Below, piece by piece: positions 25,020-52,521 of a DNA stretch of 64,000 nt. Made by a program: the position numbers and the translations under genes. The stretch lies in NCBI RefSeq assembly GCF_010119195.1, contig NZ_WRXL01000001.1, forward strand, positions 806,001 to 870,000, written 5' to 3'. The first letter of the stretch is position 1; every line of letters begins with the position of its first letter. Below the pieces are notes generated by a model. That model was given only the letters and a program-made list of their open reading frames with translations, did not search any database and was not told the origin of the DNA. Source of the stretch: Haloarcula salina (lineage in GTDB: Archaea; Halobacteriota; Halobacteria; Halobacteriales; Haloarculaceae).

Positions 25020-25055
25020 GCCACCGACCTCTCGGTAATTCTTTCTGGTAACGTC

Positions 25056-25071
25056 GGCGTCGATCGACGCC
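25056..25071. repeat. 16-bp perfect palindrome GGCGTCGATCGACGCC
   Basis: It lies 37 bases after the ftsY stop. It can fold as a six-base stem with a GATC loop, so it may end the ftsY transcript, or serve as a protein-binding site upstream of the reductase. There is no T-tract directly after it. Confidence 0.45.
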
Positions 25072-25239
25072 CGCGAGCCTCGCAACCGTGCGACACCTCA
25101 GCGGTCCGACGAGTGCCGACGCCATCGACCCGGACAGTATTGCCGCATCGAGGGAGGTGTGGACGTATTCTCCGGCAGAGGCGCGTTGAAGGGGACAGTC
25201 GTCCATCATCGATTCACACAGTATTGAGGTGTGTGGTCA

Positions 25240-26979
25240 ATGAACACAGTCGAACGCTGGAAACAGGAGAAGCACCCGCTCGACGTCGTCGACGACGTCG
25301 AGCGATACGCGAGCGAGGAGTTGAGTTTCGAGGAGATCGAGGCCCGCGCGGGCGACGGCGAGTGGGAGCGCCTGAAGTGGGCCGGGCTGTACGCCCACGG
25401 GCGGCAGGACGGGTACTTCATGTTGCGGACGAAGGTTCCGGGCGGTTCCCTCACGCCGGCGCAGGCCGAAGTCATCGGCGAGGTCGCCGACGAGTACGCC
25501 ACCGCGCCCGCCGAGTTCGGCGGCGAGGACCAGAACGCGGTCTGGGGCGACGCCTTCCTCGACATCACGACCCGGCAGGACGTCCAGATGCACTGGATCG
25601 AGATCGAGGACGTACCGGAGATCTGGGACCGCTACGATGAGGTCGGCCTGACGACGGTCCAAGGCTGCGGCGACTCGGCGCGGAATGTGCTCGGCTGTCC
25701 CGCCGCCGGGCTGGACGACCACGAGTGCTTCGACGCCCAGCCCGTGGTCGACGCGGTCTCGGACTTTTTCACGGAGAACCGCGAGTACGCGAACCTCCCG
25801 CGGAAGTTCAAGCTGACCGTCACCGGCTGTCGCCACGACTGCGCGCAGTCCCAGATCAACGACGTGGGACTGACACCGGCCAGCCGCGAGGTCGACGGCG
25901 AGGGGTACTACGGCTTCCACGTCCGCGTGGGCGGCGGCCTCTCGGACGGCCCGCGGATGGCCTCGGACCTCGACGTGTTCGTCCCGCCGGAGGACGCCGT
26001 GGAATTCTGCCGCGCCGTCGCCCAGACGTTCAAGGAACTGGGCGACCGAACCAACCGCGGCGTCTGCCGGATGCGCTACCTCGTCCAGCAACTGGGTCCC
26101 GAGCGGTTCGAGGAAGCGGTCCGGGACCGCTGTGTCGTCGATCTCCCGACGCGGGGGACCGACCGCACGGTGGGCTATCGCGGCGACCACGTCGGCGTCC
26201 ACGACCAGCGCGATTCAACCCTCAGCTACGTCGGTTTCAACGTCATCGCCGGACGGATGGGCGGTGAAGAGTTCGCCCGCGCGGCGCGGGCCGCACGGGA
26301 GTACGGGACCGACGACGCCTCGATTCGGCTCGCGACCGACCAGAACTTCCTCGTCACGCACATTCCCGACGCGAGCCTCGGCGACCTGCTGAACGAGCCG
26401 TTCGCCCGGACCTACCGGCCGGACCCCGGCCCGTTCTCGCGCGGCGCGGTCGGCTGTACCGGCTCCGAGTTCTGCAACTACGGCATCATCGAGACCAAGA
26501 AGCGCGTCCGACGGTGGGCGAAGGCGCTCGACCGCCGCGTCGACGTGCCCGAGGAGATCGACGTGGTGCGGATGCACATGTCCGGCTGTTCGGCCTCCTG
26601 TGCCCAGCCGCAGATCGCCGACATCGGCTTCCGGGGCGAGACCGTGCAGGTGGCCGACCCCGAACGGACCACCAACGAGGAGGGGGACGCGATCGTCGAG
26701 GGGATGGACTTCGGTCTGGGCGGGAGCCTCGGGGCGGACAACGAGTTCCTCGACTGGGTCGAACACGCCGTCCCGGCCGACGCCGTCGTCCCGGCACTGG
26801 AGGAACTGTTCGACGCCTTCGCCGACGAACGAGACGACGGCGAGCGCTTCTACGAGTGGTGTCGCCGCGTCGGCAACGACCGCCTCCGCGCGGTCATGCG
26901 GCGCGCCGACGCCGACGTGTCCAGCGGGATCGCGCACGGCGACGGCGGCGGTCGCGGGGAGGTGGCCGAAGATGACTGA
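25240..26979 (+). CDS. nirA: Sirohaem nitrite/sulfite reductase (NirA type)
   Basis: 579 residues from the ATG at 25240; a GTG nine bases upstream is less likely. The protein has two related halves, with the ferredoxin-like/sirohaem repeat seen as TKVPGGSLTPAQAEVIGEVA early on. The [4Fe-4S]-sirohaem cysteines are Cys406-X5-Cys412 (CTGSEFC) and Cys450-X3-Cys454 (CSASC); an older, partly matching set is in the first half (GCRHDCAQSQI). The family reduces nitrite to ammonia or sulfite to sulfide with six electrons. Which substrate is used cannot be told from this sequence. Its end overlaps a ferredoxin-FrhB gene by 8 bases, so the electron donor may be F420H2 through that protein. Confidence 0.88.
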   Translation: MNTVERWKQEKHPLDVVDDVERYASEELSFEEIEARAGDGEWERLKWAGLYAHGRQDGYFMLRTKVPGGSLTPAQAEVIGEVADEYATAPAEFGGEDQNAVWGDAFLDITTRQDVQMHWIEIEDVPEIWDRYDEVGLTTVQGCGDSARNVLGCPAAGLDDHECFDAQPVVDAVSDFFTENREYANLPRKFKLTVTGCRHDCAQSQINDVGLTPASREVDGEGYYGFHVRVGGGLSDGPRMASDLDVFVPPEDAVEFCRAVAQTFKELGDRTNRGVCRMRYLVQQLGPERFEEAVRDRCVVDLPTRGTDRTVGYRGDHVGVHDQRDSTLSYVGFNVIAGRMGGEEFARAARAAREYGTDDASIRLATDQNFLVTHIPDASLGDLLNEPFARTYRPDPGPFSRGAVGCTGSEFCNYGIIETKKRVRRWAKALDRRVDVPEEIDVVRMHMSGCSASCAQPQIADIGFRGETVQVADPERTTNEEGDAIVEGMDFGLGGSLGADNEFLDWVEHAVPADAVVPALEELFDAFADERDDGERFYEWCRRVGNDRLRAVMRRADADVSSGIAHGDGGGRGEVAEDD

Positions 26980-28558
26980 CCGGCGCTACCGGCGGCAGGT
27001 CGCGCCGGCCGACGCCGCGCCCGAACTGGTGGACGACGAGCGAACCGGTGCTACTCCGGGCCGCGGCGACCTTCGACTGGTGACCGACGGCGGCGAACCG
27101 ATGCCCGGTGTCCCGGACGACGGGACCGACGGTTGCGGCTGTGGGGACTCGTGTGGCTGTGGCGGTGGCGAGAGCGGGCGAGACGGCGAGCGGCGCGCTC
27201 GACCGGACGGCGGCACCGGCGCGGCCAACGTCGAGCCGGACGGGACGCTCAAGCCGATCCAGTTCACCGAGCCCGCGTCGGGGACCAGTCAGGACGTGGA
27301 GAGCGGGCCGCCGGACGAGCGCGTCGGCGTGCCCGAGGGCGTCGACCTCGACACGCCCGGTTACGGCATCCGCGCGGAGATGAGCGACATCGAGGAGCCC
27401 GACGGGAAGACGTGGTTCATGGAACTGGACGAAGCGGTGATACAGGCCGACCGCTGCATCCAGTGTGGGACCTGCGTCGCGGCCTGCCCGAGCGACTCCA
27501 TCGGCGTCGGCGAGGACGACCTGCCGGAACTCGTGAAGATGTGTACGGGCTGTTCGCTGTGCTGGGACGTGTGCCCGCGCGGCGGCCTCCGGTACGAACG
27601 GCAGTGGAAGATCACCGGCGGCGACGACAACGTCTCGGGCGCGGGCGACCCCATCACGGAGTTCTCCGCGAAAGTCGAGGACGACTGGCGCGAGAACGCT
27701 CAGGACGGCGGTCTCGTGACCTCGGTCCTGTGTCACCTGCTCGAAGCCGGGGAAATCGACGGCGCACTCATCGCGACCGAGAGCGACGACGCCGAGTGGA
27801 AGGCCGAATCGTTCCTCGCCACCACCCCGGCGGAGTGCATCGAGAACGCCGGCAGCTTCTACAACCAGACGCTCGCGCTCGGGAACCTGGACCTCGAACG
27901 GTGGGCGCACAAGCTCGACGTTCCCCTCGCCGATGCCTCGCTCGCGCTCGTGGGCACGCCCTGCGAGATCGAAGGAATCCGCGCCCTGCAGGACTTCGAC
28001 TGGGACTACGCCGCCCAGGAGGACGGCGTCCGCGCGGTCGACTACACCATCGCGCTGATGTGCACGAAGAACTTCAACTACTACTCGCTCGTCGGCGAAC
28101 TCATCGAGGAAGAGCGCGGCATCGACCGGTCCGACATCGGCAAGATGGACGTGCTCCACGGGAAGCTGATGGTCTACGGCGAAGACGGCGAGATGCTGCT
28201 GGAGGAGGACGTCGAGGCGTTCCACGACGCCGCGCTCAAGGGGTGTGACGAGTGCGCCGACTTCACCGGCTACTGCGCAGACCTCACTGTCGGGTCGGTC
28301 GGCTCCAGCGACGAGTACTCCTCGGTCATCGTCCGCACCGAGCGAGGACTGCGTGCGTGGGAACTGACGGAACCGGACCTCGACTACCACGATCTCGAAG
28401 ACCGCTCGGCGATCGGAAAGCTCCAGGGCTGGGACAAGAAGAAGGCCTTCGACTCGCTGCAGCGACCCTTCGACCCCGACGCACCGCGGTTCATCGACTA
28501 CGCGGACCACGCCGAGAACTACGGAACGACGCGTGCCCCCCACGAGAGCGATCACTGA
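26972..28558 (+). CDS. Ferredoxin-fused coenzyme F420 hydrogenase/dehydrogenase beta-subunit (FrhB-like) protein
   Basis: 528 residues. The N-terminal 145 residues are a disordered linker with a Cys/Gly cluster (GCGCGDSCGCGGG) near 50-65. Two [4Fe-4S] motifs follow: Cys162-165-168-172 (CIQCGTCVAACP) and Cys191-194-197-201 (CTGCSLCWDVCP). From about 230 to the end is the FrhB domain, with LVGTPCEIEGIRALQ, IALMCTKNFNYYSL and KGCDECADFTGYCADLTVGS; the cysteines there suit a further cluster beside flavin and F420. FrhB proteins move hydride from F420H2 to FAD. The 8-base overlap with the sirohaem reductase gene resembles a split version of methanogen Fsr, which is a single FrhB-sulfite reductase chain. 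Confidence 0.86.
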   Translation: MTDRRYRRQVAPADAAPELVDDERTGATPGRGDLRLVTDGGEPMPGVPDDGTDGCGCGDSCGCGGGESGRDGERRARPDGGTGAANVEPDGTLKPIQFTEPASGTSQDVESGPPDERVGVPEGVDLDTPGYGIRAEMSDIEEPDGKTWFMELDEAVIQADRCIQCGTCVAACPSDSIGVGEDDLPELVKMCTGCSLCWDVCPRGGLRYERQWKITGGDDNVSGAGDPITEFSAKVEDDWRENAQDGGLVTSVLCHLLEAGEIDGALIATESDDAEWKAESFLATTPAECIENAGSFYNQTLALGNLDLERWAHKLDVPLADASLALVGTPCEIEGIRALQDFDWDYAAQEDGVRAVDYTIALMCTKNFNYYSLVGELIEEERGIDRSDIGKMDVLHGKLMVYGEDGEMLLEEDVEAFHDAALKGCDECADFTGYCADLTVGSVGSSDEYSSVIVRTERGLRAWELTEPDLDYHDLEDRSAIGKLQGWDKKKAFDSLQRPFDPDAPRFIDYADHAENYGTTRAPHESDH

Positions 28559-28598
28559 GACAGGGGCTGACAGATCAGGGCCGTATCGCGGTTCACAC

Positions 28599-28647
28599 CG
28601 GATTATCCCGTTGTTAAGGCCGGATTCGCCCGTCGCTCGAACGGATT
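28599..28647 (+). promoter_or_regulatory. Three helically phased CGGATT direct repeats
   Basis: CGGATT at 28599-28604, 28621-28626 and 28642-28647, with two further copies at 28846 and 28898. Spacing of 22 and 21 bases places them on one face of the helix, as for cooperative binding of a regulator. Confidence 0.3.
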
Positions 28648-28999
28648 TTGACCGTCAGACGCTCGGGACCGCGGTCGTAAGCCGACCCTGTGACGGCGTT
28701 CCCGTCGCGGGGTGTCCGACTCTTCGACTCCCCATGAGAGCGTTCGGCACAATAGCGGTGTGTGGGATTACCAGTCGGTCCCGATTTCGCGAGCGTCCTC
28801 CCGACTTCGAGCGGAGACGCGACGATCGGACGCGCTCGGGACGAGCGGATTTATCCGACCTGGCGGCGCGATAATCCAGCGTTTCGCGAGTGAACCGCGG
28901 ATTTACTCACAGCCGCCGTGGCAGGGACCCGCGGACTCGGCCGGGACCGGACAGAAGTCGTCCCGTCGTGCCGCGGTGAGCACACAAACCTGACGTAGA

Positions 29000-29038
29000 C
29001 CGCCTCTATCCGCAGATATTCGGCTGAGACAGAGGCGG
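29000..29038. repeat. Inverted repeat CCGCCTCT-N23-AGAGGCGG
   Basis: Perfect eight-base arms around a 23-base loop that itself has CCG/CGG ends (29010-29023). It could be a transcript hairpin or a binding site upstream of the lipoprotein gene. Confidence 0.45.
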
Positions 29039-29110
29039 CTCGTGCGCTCGGAGACCGTTCAGCGGGAGCGACGGCGAAACGTGGTCCGCTCGGTCCATCC
29101 TTAGCAGGTC

Positions 29111-29120
29111 ATTCATAAAC
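29111..29120 (+). promoter_or_regulatory. TATA element of the sequon-repeat lipoprotein
   Basis: ATTCATAAAC is 28-37 bases ahead of the ATG at 29148. Confidence 0.45.
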
Positions 29121-29147
29121 TCCCCCGGTGACGTTCGGGGAAACGCT

Positions 29148-29663
29148 ATGGGAAGCCAGAGCAGTACACGACGGAACGTCATCAAACTCGCGGGCGGGGC
29201 GCTCGTCGCCCTCGCCGGCTGTAGCGACAGCGGCAGTAGCGGGACCCCGACCGAGGGCGGCGGTGCCGAGGGCCCGGGGACGGGAACCGAATCGGGCATG
29301 GATGAGACCGAATCGGGCATGGGCGAGACCACCGAGACCGAATCCGGTATGGGCGAGTCCACCGAGACCGAGTCGGAGATGGACGCGACCACTGAAACCG
29401 ACACGGAGCTGACCAACGAGACCGACACCGGTGCGACGACCGAGACCGGGATGTCTGGCAACGAGACGTCGCTCGGCAACGAAACCGGGACGGCCGGTAA
29501 CGAGACGTCGCTCGGCAACGAAACCGGGACGGCCGGCAACGAGACGTCGCTCGGCAACGAGACGACGCTGGGTAACGAAACCGCCACGCCCGGTAACGAA
29601 ACCGCGCTCGGTAACGAGACGGCCACGCCGGGCAACGAGACGGCGACCGAGACCGAAGAGTAA
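29148..29663 (+). CDS. Tat lipoprotein made of Asn-Glu-Thr glycosylation-sequon repeats
   Basis: 171 residues. The twin-arginine signal is STRRNVIKLAGGALVALAG followed by the lipobox Cys. There is no globular domain: residues 27-90 are Glu/Thr/Ser/Gly repeats of the ETESGM-type, and residues about 88-166 contain eleven copies of Asn-Glu-Thr in units such as GNETSLGNETGTA. Asn-X-Thr is the archaeal N-glycosylation sequon, so the mature protein may be a lipid-anchored, densely glycosylated and highly acidic brush at the cell surface. That is inference; it may also be a drifting low-complexity protein. Single gene, own promoter, strong hairpin after the stop. Confidence 0.78.
   Translation: MGSQSSTRRNVIKLAGGALVALAGCSDSGSSGTPTEGGGAEGPGTGTESGMDETESGMGETTETESGMGESTETESEMDATTETDTELTNETDTGATTETGMSGNETSLGNETGTAGNETSLGNETGTAGNETSLGNETTLGNETATPGNETALGNETATPGNETATETEE
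29457..29652 (+). repeat. Minisatellite within the lipoprotein gene (39-base unit, then shorter units)
   Basis: Units at 29457-29495 and 29496-29534 are nearly identical 39-mers coding GNETSLGNETGTA. A third, partial unit starts at 29535, followed by 18-21 base units coding GNETAL and GNETATP. Such arrays change length by slippage or recombination. Confidence 0.75.
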
Positions 29664-50035: not shown

Positions 50036-51238
50036 CTACCGCGAGAAGAGGCTGTTGTGGACCGGCGCGAAGTTGCTCTCCTCGCTGTCCTCGACCACGG
50101 AATCGGTGACGGCCTTGCCGTCGACGCCGGCGTCGAGGAAGTCCGACAGCGGCGGGCCGACGTTGTCCGGTTCCACGAGGAAGGCGTCGTGGCCGTGGTC
50201 GGAGTCGATGACGTGGTGGGCGACGCCGGCGTCGGCCGCCCGGAGCGAGTCTGCCAGCGCCTCGGCCTGCTGGGTGGTGAAGTGCCAGTCGGCGGTAAAG
50301 GACATCACGAGCGCCTCGCCGTCGAAGGCCGCCAGCGCGTCGGCGTCGGAGTCGAAGCCCGCGGCGAGGTCGTAGTTGTCCATCGCCCGCGTCAGGTAGA
50401 GGTAGCTGTTGGCGTCGAAGCGCTCGGTGAACTTCTCGGCGTTGTAATCGAGGTACGACTCCACGTCGCGGTAGGGGAAGAACGACCCGGCTGCGTCGAC
50501 GGGGAACGTGCGGACGGCGTCCCGGCCGGCGGCGCGGCGGCCGAACTTCTGCTCCATCGACGCCTTCGAGAGGTACATCACGTGGCCCAGCTGCCGGGCC
50601 AGGGCGAGGCCGTCGCGCGGCGGCTCGCCGTCGTAGTAGTGGCCCCGGTCCCAGTTCGGGTCGGTCGTGATGGCCCGGCGCGCGATGGCGTCGAGCGCGA
50701 GGCACTGGGGGTCCAGCCGCGCTGCGGTGGCGATTGGGACGATGCGCTCGACGTGGTCGGGGTGGCGTTTCGCCCACTCGAGGACGTTCATGCCGCCGAC
50801 GCTGCCGCCGACGACGGCGTGGAGGTGCGGGACGCCGAGTTCGTCGAGCAGGGCTCGCTGGGCCTCGGTCCAGTCGCGGACGGTGACCGGCGGGAAGTCC
50901 GTGCCGTAGGGCTCGCCGGTCTCGGGGTTCTCGCTGGCCGGTCCCGTCGACCCGTAACAGGAGCCGGGGACGTTCACGCAGACGGCGTAGTACTCCGTGG
51001 TGTCGATGGCCTTGCCCGGCCCGACGATGTCGTCCCACCAGGCGCGGGCCTGGTCGGCGCTGTCGACCCGGTCGCGGCCGGCGACGTGGGCGCTCCCGGT
51101 CAGCGCGTGACAGACGAGTACGGCGTTCTCGCCGTCGAACTCCCCGTAGGCCTCGTAAGCGAGTTCGAGGTCGGGGATCGTCTCCCCGCAGTCGAACTCG
51201 AACTCGCCCACCGAGACCGTGCCGTGTTCGACGTTCAT
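50036..51238 (-). CDS. metX: Homoserine O-acetyltransferase
   Basis: 400 residues from the ATG at 51238. Alpha/beta hydrolase fold with the nucleophile Ser146 in [15 protein letters not shown], the oxyanion/substrate segment [25 protein letters not shown] and the catalytic His in [12 protein letters not shown]. It activates homoserine with acetyl-CoA for methionine synthesis. Its start overlaps the metY stop (ATGA), so the two make a pathway operon. Confidence 0.95.
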
Positions 51239-52521
51239 GTCACTCGCTCGATGGCGTCGTCGACGTCCGCCAGGATGTCCTCGGGGTCCTCGATGCCGAC
51301 GCTCATCCGCACGAGGTCGGGGCTGACGCCGCTCGCGCGCTGTTCCTCCTCGGAGAGCTGTGCGTGCGTGGTGCTCGCGGGGTGGATGACCAGCGTCTTC
51401 GCGTCGCCGATGTTGGCGAGGAACTGCGCGAGGTCGGTCTCCTCGCAGAAGCGCTGGCTCGCCTCGTAGCCGCCCTCGAGGCCGAAGGTGACGATGCCGC
51501 CGAAGCCACCCGAGAGGTACTCCGTCGCGAGGTCGTGGGTCTCGTGGTCTTCGAGTCCGGGGTAAGTGACCCAGGCCACGTCGGGGTGGTCCCGGAGGTG
51601 CTCCGCGACGGTCATCGCGTTCTCGCAGTGCCGTTCCATCCGCAGCGAGAGCGTCTCGGAGCCCTGGAGCGTCGCCCACGCGTCGAAGGGCTTCTGGCCG
51701 TCGCCGAGCGAGCGGAGGCCGCGCTGGCGAGCGGCGACGGTGAACGCGCGGTCGCCGAACGCCTCCGAGAAGTTCGTGTCGTTGAACGCCGCGTTCGGCG
51801 CGCCGAGTTCGGGGTACTTCTCGGGGTACTCGCCCCACGGGAACGAGCCCCCGTCGACGAGGACGCCGCCGACCGTCGTCCCGGAGCCGTGGATCCACTT
51901 CGTCGTCGACTCCCAGACGACGTCGACGCCGTGGTCGAGGGGGTTACAGAGCGCGGGCGTCCCGAACGTGTTGTCGACGAACAGCGGGACGCCGCGGTCG
52001 TGGGCCACCTCGGCGATGTCTTCGAGCGGCGGCACGACGAGCGAGGGGTTCCCGATGGTCTCGCAGTGGACGTACGCCGTGTCGTCGTCGATGGCCGCGG
52101 CGTAGGCGTCCGGGTCCAGCGTGTCGACGAAGCGGGACTCGATGCCGCGGCGGCTGGCGGTGTGGGTGAGGTAGGCGTGTGTCCCGCCGTAGATGGACGA
52201 GGCGGACACCACGTTGTCGCCGGCCTCGGCGAGGACGAGCGTCCCGGCGTCCAGCGCGGCCATCCCGGACCCGGTGGCGACGGCGTCGACGCCGTTCTCC
52301 AGCGACGCGAGGCGCTTCTCCAGGGTCCTTACGGTGGGGTTGTCGAACCGGGAGTAGACGTTGCCCGGGTCCTCGAGGGCGTACCGCTCGGCCGCCGTCT
52401 CGGCGTCCTCGAAGACGTACGACGAGGTCTGGTAGATGGGCGGCGCGCGCGCCCCCGTCGCGGGGTCCGGCTCCTCCTGGCCGGCGTGGACGCAGCGCGT
52501 CCCGAATCCGTAGTCGGTCAT
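51235..52521 (-). CDS. metY: O-acetylhomoserine sulfhydrylase
   Basis: 428 residues, Cys/Met metabolism PLP family. The PLP lysine is Lys208 in [31 protein letters not shown] and [19 protein letters not shown] are further family marks. It condenses O-acetylhomoserine with sulfide to homocysteine. Its product chain joins MetX in one operon with metY first. A leaderless promoter lies at 52546-52556. Confidence 0.95.

Follow-up and report, generated by a model that had tools for sequence, protein, structure and literature searches.

This analysis concerns a pair of overlapping genes in a 64,000-nucleotide stretch of the Haloarcula salina genome (contig NZ_WRXL01000001.1, positions 806,001 to 870,000; the window, whose numbering is used throughout), which together are a candidate reductase fed by the reduced cofactor F420 (F420H2). 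The first gene encodes a sirohaem reductase and the second a ferredoxin-flavoprotein with an FrhB domain. They are referred to as aFsr-alpha and aFsr-beta, the names given by Susanti and Mukhopadhyay in 2012 (PMC3448663), who proposed F420H2-dependent sulfite reduction in haloarchaea. The genes and their features were as follows; conservation counts refer to 86 aligned reductase/FrhB pairs.

25240..26979, + strand: aFsr-alpha (P0002), sirohaem [4Fe-4S] reductase of the NirA/assimilatory sulfite reductase (SIR) type, 579 amino acids
26972..28558, + strand: aFsr-beta (P0001), 2x[4Fe-4S] ferredoxin and FrhB flavoprotein, predicted F420H2 dehydrogenase subunit, 528 amino acids
26972..26979, + strand: overlap of the two genes, ATGACTGA, 8 bases, with the start of beta inside the end of alpha
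25573..25575, + strand: Arg112, first oxyanion-binding residue, invariant (86/86)
25681..25683, + strand: Arg148, second oxyanion-binding residue, invariant (86/86)
25804..25812, + strand: Lys189-Phe-Lys191, substrate lysines, both Lys in 86/86
26455..26601, + strand: sirohaem-[4Fe-4S] ligands C406, C412, C450 and C454 (CX5C ... CX3C), invariant (86/86)
27134..27163, + strand: CGCGDSCGCG in the N-terminal extension of aFsr-beta, residues 55-64
27455..27574, + strand: two ferredoxin-type [4Fe-4S] motifs, C162/165/168/172 and C191/194/197/201, all eight Cys in 86/86
27701..27712, + strand: QDGG, residues 244-247, the pyrophosphate-binding motif of FrhB for flavin adenine dinucleotide (FAD); Q, G and G in 86/86
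27962..28255, + strand: noncanonical flavin-proximal [4Fe-4S] ligands C331, C364, C425 and C428 (PCX32CX60CX2C), 86/86
28157..28165, + strand: H396-G397-K398, counterpart of the GKGK loop of FrhB; G in 84/86, K in 56/86

The two open reading frames (ORFs) lie in different frames and do not form one polypeptide; their overlap may couple their translation. The initial annotation was exact as to ORFs, strands and the 8-base overlap. The cysteines that it had read as Cys-X5-Cys and Cys-X3-Cys in the reductase were present (C406, C412 and C450, C454), as were the two [4Fe-4S] motifs (C162...C172, C191...C201) followed by FrhB_FdhB_N/C. A profile search of the 3.79 Mb host genome found aFsr-beta as its only FrhB_C protein, and Haloferax volcanii, searched as a control, gave no FrhB_C match.

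aFsr-alpha is a four-domain protein matching NIR_SIR (2.2e-54) and NIR_SIR_ferr (1.3e-28) in Pfam, with two NIR_SIR stretches, NIR_SIR_ferr halves and no Fer4 domain. The nearest solved structures were tobacco and spinach nitrite reductase (NiR) and M. tuberculosis NirA, of which the tobacco enzyme aligned along the whole length. An AlphaFold model of aFsr-alpha (mean predicted local distance difference test score, pLDDT, 78.8) matched M. tuberculosis NirA (1zj8) with Z 43.2 and a root-mean-square deviation (rmsd) of 2.5 over 506 residues. aFsr-beta matched FrhB_FdhB_N (5e-20), FrhB_FdhB_C (1.6e-32) and Fer4, and its best sequence matches in the PDB were Fsr (4.5e-40), an F420-reducing carbon monoxide dehydrogenase (CODH) component (4.1e-37) and Frh (2.1e-27). 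A role in binding the FAD pyrophosphate has been described for the QDGG-type motif of FrhB (eLife 01963). In the Fsr structure (PMC10229431), the homologous flavin-proximal cluster, likewise noncanonical, has the ligand pattern PCX40CX54CX2C in place of PCX32CX60CX2C.

Pairing across genomes and descent of the operon

A survey of 194 genomes of the host's order, searched for FrhB_C and for the reductase, identified 83 FrhB proteins in 70 genomes. Reductases of the window type (73-100% identity to aFsr-alpha) had an FrhB gene directly 3' and on the same strand in 63/63 cases, and a rhodanese-fused type (approximately 800 amino acids, 45-54% identity to aFsr-alpha) had one directly 3' in 18/18, whereas the remaining listed reductases, which are stand-alone, had one in 0/69. 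Co-occurrence in haloarchaeal genomes, proposed in the initial annotation as a check, was thus borne out. In a scan of named genomes, the reductase lay immediately upstream of FrhB at 80/80 loci, and the genes overlapped by 8 bases in 19 loci and by 11 bases in 39, together 58 of the 67 measurable named loci. The recurrence of this order and overlap in all 80 is far beyond chance.

In a maximum-likelihood tree, every FrhB-linked reductase fell on one side of a branch with 100/100 support. Within that clade, the haloarchaeal window type and the reductases of Rubrobacter were sister groups, and the rhodanese type lay outside both. By ORF length the rhodanese type had first counted 18/19, but the apparent exception without FrhB (G047) was placed by the tree among the stand-alone reductases. 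Reductase and FrhB distances were correlated over the 86 pairs (r 0.97), and for the window type a partial r of 0.64 was retained after the ftsY distance had been removed. An orphan aFsr-beta, 71% identical, with a shorter N-terminus and no adjoining reductase, was found at L053 6801-8084; two complete pairs are also present in the same genome.

The rhodanese-fused second branch (clade B) encodes a reductase with a tandem rhodanese at its N-terminus, followed by a shorter FrhB protein:

L041 4125-7847, and loci L040-L052, L054, L055, L057-L059: rhodanese-reductase and FrhB

The active-site loop YCNTARRLS of the second rhodanese repeat was kept in 16 of the 17 listed proteins, and the next gene at L041 encodes a DmsR_N/HTH_10 regulator. 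A 2024 paper had already remarked on fusions of rhodanese and NirA in Halobacteria, with no mention of an FrhB partner in the part consulted (PMC11237513).

A match to ftsY was found at 38 of the 80 named loci, at most 5 kb upstream of the pair in most of them, and three Haloarcula/Halomicroarcula relatives share both the ftsY side and the srp54 end with the window. No FrhB protein was found in a first survey of 10 congeners (0/10). A relic of the operon was present at the ftsY-srp54 site in 7/12 congeners:

L167 2950-3180, and loci L168, L170, L171, L172, L173 and L174: relics, corresponding to window 25020-29150

In each, the stretch upstream of the reductase gene and the opening codons of that gene run directly into the beginning of the FrhB gene (~60 codons), the remainder being deleted. 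This FrhB beginning is ~54-75% identical to the N-terminal extension of the window's aFsr-beta; some relics are still open and others have decayed. Their occurrence at this site in 7/12 congeners indicates that the operon was probably ancestral in the genus and was later lost by deletion in many species. The same extension carries CGCGDSCGCG, a possible metal-binding tail, which is found in some, not all, clade A beta proteins and lies near His-rich stretches in three (L064, L072, L073). Since many proteins of clade A lack the motif or have only part of it, it was set aside as an extra cofactor site.

Substrate and genomic context

The host genome contains three sirohaem reductases, including NasD (at C8:379 kb) and another stand-alone enzyme (at C1:934 kb). 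The genes adjoining NasD encode a NarK-type transporter and two nitrate reductases of the haloarchaeal NasA kind. The substrate motif reads PRKFK in aFsr-alpha, PRKFN in the host's own NasD and PRKWN in plant nitrite reductase. The Asn at the fourth substrate position, a trait of ferredoxin-nitrite reductases, is thus absent from aFsr-alpha, where Lys191 was found in 86/86 pairs; the sulfite-type residues R112, R148, K189 and K191 were all invariant. Because these residues are kept in every pair whereas NasD has the nitrite-type Asn, sulfite appears the likelier substrate.

Further, the genomic context in Rubrobacteria, the most telling one, pointed in the same direction. A Rubrobacter metagenome-assembled genome (MAG) has the order cofD, cofC-cofE fusion, cysH, aFsr-alpha, aFsr-beta, sat (L163 1-7530); the matches to cofD, cofE, cofC, cysH and sat each exceeded the curated cut-off. 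The FrhB gene was present in 33/39 Rubrobacteria genomes, and the full cysH-alpha-beta-sat order was found in 18 of 20 fetched loci (L194-L213), the exceptions being one locus without a sat match and one at the end of a short contig. Within the fetched flanks of the 20 loci, cofC/E was detected in 15 and cofD in 13. In this neighbourhood the pair is thereby linked with sulfate assimilation as well as with F420. No paper describing the cluster was found in the open-licence literature on F420 and sulfite reductase in Rubrobacter.

Two observations weigh against sulfite. ATP sulfurylase was not found in the host genome, so that the Rubrobacteria context carries over to the archaeon by homology only; as the enzyme was found in just 4/194 genomes of the order, a link between aFsr and sulfate activation cannot be drawn in haloarchaea. 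In addition, Lys191 does not exclude nitrite, since a methanogen Fsr with this Lys reduces both sulfite and nitrite, the latter in vivo and in vitro (PMC13381448). The host's PAPS_reduct matches were rejected as 3'-phosphoadenosine-5'-phosphosulfate (PAPS) reductases, one being a weak, below-cut-off CysD-like ORF and the other reading like a tRNA-thiolation enzyme. A 490-amino-acid ORF at L192 7016-8488 (G000 C1 ~321-322.5 kb) showed weak CysD/PAPS_reduct likeness below NCBIfam cut-offs, with no CysN seen adjoining.

These points bear on an alternative in which the complex is F420H2-dependent but serves in haloarchaea chiefly to reduce nitrite to ammonia. The overall similarity of aFsr-alpha is highest to NirA/ferredoxin-nitrite reductases, most pair-bearing haloarchaea are, like the host, devoid of ATP sulfurylase, and FsrII of anaerobic methanotrophic archaea (ANME) is, like the methanogen Fsr, active on nitrite, being a nitrite reductase (PMC9295563). 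However, a distinct NasD in the host carries the nitrite-type Asn and adjoins two NasA genes, and Lys191 of aFsr-alpha is invariant. The second oxyanion Arg, which is lost in the nitrite-only FsrII of ANME (PMC9295563), is retained in aFsr-alpha. In Rubrobacteria, the pair is flanked by cysH and sat; elsewhere in the sampled Rubrobacter MAG there is a second sirohaem protein, of NirB size. We therefore regard nitrite as the chief substrate as unlikely. The initial annotation had named nitrite and sulfite alike; of the two, sulfite is the better supported, by the invariant Arg and Lys, the Asn of NasD and the cysH/sat context.

The rhodanese branch would combine thiosulfate cleavage with sulfite reduction. 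A broader and tentative proposal, to which we give slightly less than an even chance, is that the pair forms the core of an F420-driven assimilatory sulfur reduction found in two domains: the complete Rubrobacteria cofD-cofC/E-cysH-aFsr-sat cluster, with F420H2 as donor for bacterial sulfate assimilation, and the haloarchaeal rhodanese-reductase-FrhB genes, with thiosulfate being cleaved and the sulfite so set free being reduced.

Two other genes related to sulfur or sirohaem metabolism were found in the window, neither adjoining the pair: a uroporphyrinogen-III C-methyltransferase, concerned with a sirohaem precursor (294-1049, + strand), and a sulfide-using O-acetylhomoserine/O-acetylserine sulfhydrylase (51235-52521, - strand).

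Electron donor

The host genome encodes CofD and the NADPH-dependent F420 reductase NpdG, both above curated cut-offs, which could supply F420H2. The strict pairing, the invariant FAD and Fe-S ligands, these two genes and the cof clusters of Rubrobacter strongly support alpha and beta as a dedicated two-subunit enzyme with an FrhB-type feeding subunit. With a probability of roughly 0.7, we consider the pair to make up aFsr, a sulfite reductase of the assimilatory type that depends on F420H2. What we infer in this reading is that the two proteins form a complex, which donor feeds it, which way the electrons flow and that sulfite is its main substrate.

In such an enzyme, the FAD held by beta's FrhB domain would receive a hydride from F420H2 and split it into single electrons, which would enter the flavin-proximal cluster at C331/364/425/428. 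From there, electrons would move through the two ferredoxin-type clusters of beta to the [4Fe-4S]-sirohaem of alpha, where sulfite would be reduced to sulfide with six electrons, that is, three F420H2 per sulfite. The built-in ferredoxin domain of beta would replace the soluble ferredoxin of stand-alone NirA enzymes; since alpha is devoid of the ferredoxin domain inserted in Fsr, that of beta presumably docks straight onto alpha. NpdG, encoded elsewhere in the genome, would re-reduce F420 from NADPH.

Three points count against the use of F420. First, K398, the putative F420-phosphate lysine, was kept in 56/86 pairs and was often replaced by Glu. The corresponding FrhB loop, IGKGK, has been proposed to touch the F420 phosphate (eLife 00218); known F420 enzymes also vary at the position of this loop, and ANME FsrII uses F420H2 though its F420 site diverges (PMC9295563). 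Second, the model of aFsr-beta was poor (mean pLDDT 53.7); F420 enzymes ranked first in a fold search with it, and, given the low confidence of the model, these matches are taken as concordant with the sequence matches and no more. Third, the FrhB fold occurs in the F420-independent plant HCAR (5dqr; Z 15.9, rmsd 4.5, 246 residues), a ferredoxin-dependent enzyme; a subunit of Pyrococcus SHI had the FrhB fold in the same search as well.

It follows that the FrhB subunit might not use F420 at all: electrons could come from ferredoxin or NAD(P)H, as in an enzyme of the HCAR type, or the reductase could take ferredoxin directly, with the FrhB protein otherwise employed. The variation at K398, the stand-alone reductase paralogues of the host, which work without an FrhB partner, and the genome with an extra FrhB protein apart from any reductase (L053) would fit this alternative. 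It is opposed by the closest solved sequence relatives of beta, all of which are F420 enzymes, by the clustering of F420-biosynthesis genes with the pair in Rubrobacteria and by pairing that, from the reductase side, has no exceptions. We judge it a little less probable even than the nitrite alternative. The initial annotation had F420H2, rather than plain ferredoxin, feed the reductase, a reading supported in part: strict pairing, the FAD and Fe-S ligands, CofD/NpdG and the Rubrobacter cof clusters speak for an enzyme fed by an FrhB-type subunit, whereas F420 dependence itself is something we infer and K398 varies. That two unrelated genes came to adjoin and overlap here by chance can be dismissed, as order, strand and contact were kept at all 80 named loci and in 81/81 clade members, across archaeal families and the bacterial class Rubrobacteria.

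Relation to known systems

The idea of a two-gene F420-dependent reductase is not new, having been published in 2012 as aFsr (PMC3448663). The aFsr of that proposal has the same two subunits in haloarchaea, an aSir-type alpha and an Fsr-N-type beta, and no difference in kind was found. The window pair has an aSir/NirA subunit beside an Fsr-N homologue, FrhB preceded by two N-terminal [4Fe-4S] motifs, and the FAD motif with the flavin-proximal ligands; by its sequence-testable architecture and cofactor ligands it is a member of this predicted kind. The enzyme was still called putative by Heryakusuma et al. in 2022 (PMC9295563). No experimental test of aFsr was found in the open-licence papers, where work on it was limited to those of 2012 and 2022.

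The initial annotation had described the modules of methanogen Fsr as split and reversed in order, which is true of the FrhB half only. In group I Fsr (PMC10229431; 7np8, 7npa), the N-terminal ferredoxin and FrhB half is homologous to aFsr-beta, with flavin-proximal ligands alike. However, Fsr is a single chain whose reductase is single-repeat and Dsr-like, with an inserted ferredoxin domain, and this half lacks full-length homology to aFsr-alpha, whereas the window pair consists of two chains with a two-repeat NirA-type reductase lacking that insertion. The pair is therefore not an Fsr, given the different reductase type and separate chains, although the FrhB electron-input module would work alike. 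The stand-alone NirA/SIR enzymes, such as those at C8:379 kb and C1:934 kb, share the fold and sirohaem cluster with aFsr-alpha (~40-46% identity), but form a separate clade without FrhB partners, and the residue at the position of Lys191 is Asn in NasD. FpoF/FqoF, which serves membrane complexes as their F420H2 dehydrogenase input subunit, shares the ferredoxin and FrhB architecture, but aFsr-beta scored 111.5 bits against the NCBIfam FpoF model, below the cut-off of 475, and no membrane complex genes adjoin the pair.

New in the present analysis are the exception-free pairing counts, the single origin of the FrhB-linked reductases, the FrhB proteins that accompany the rhodanese type, the cysH/sat/cof context in Rubrobacter and the relics in Haloarcula; with these, the genomic case for the 2012 proposal is much stronger. 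A 2021 review listed one F420-dependent reaction alone as reported in halophilic archaea, where the role of F420 was called enigmatic (PMC8305020). The pair offers a concrete, testable role for F420 in culturable haloarchaea, among which Halorhabdus, Natrinema and Haloarcula mannanilytica are carriers. Through the Rubrobacter cluster, an F420-dependent enzyme for assimilatory sulfite reduction could be put to a direct test in a bacterium as well. If the proposed function is correct, the FrhB module would have been joined independently to two kinds of sirohaem reductase.

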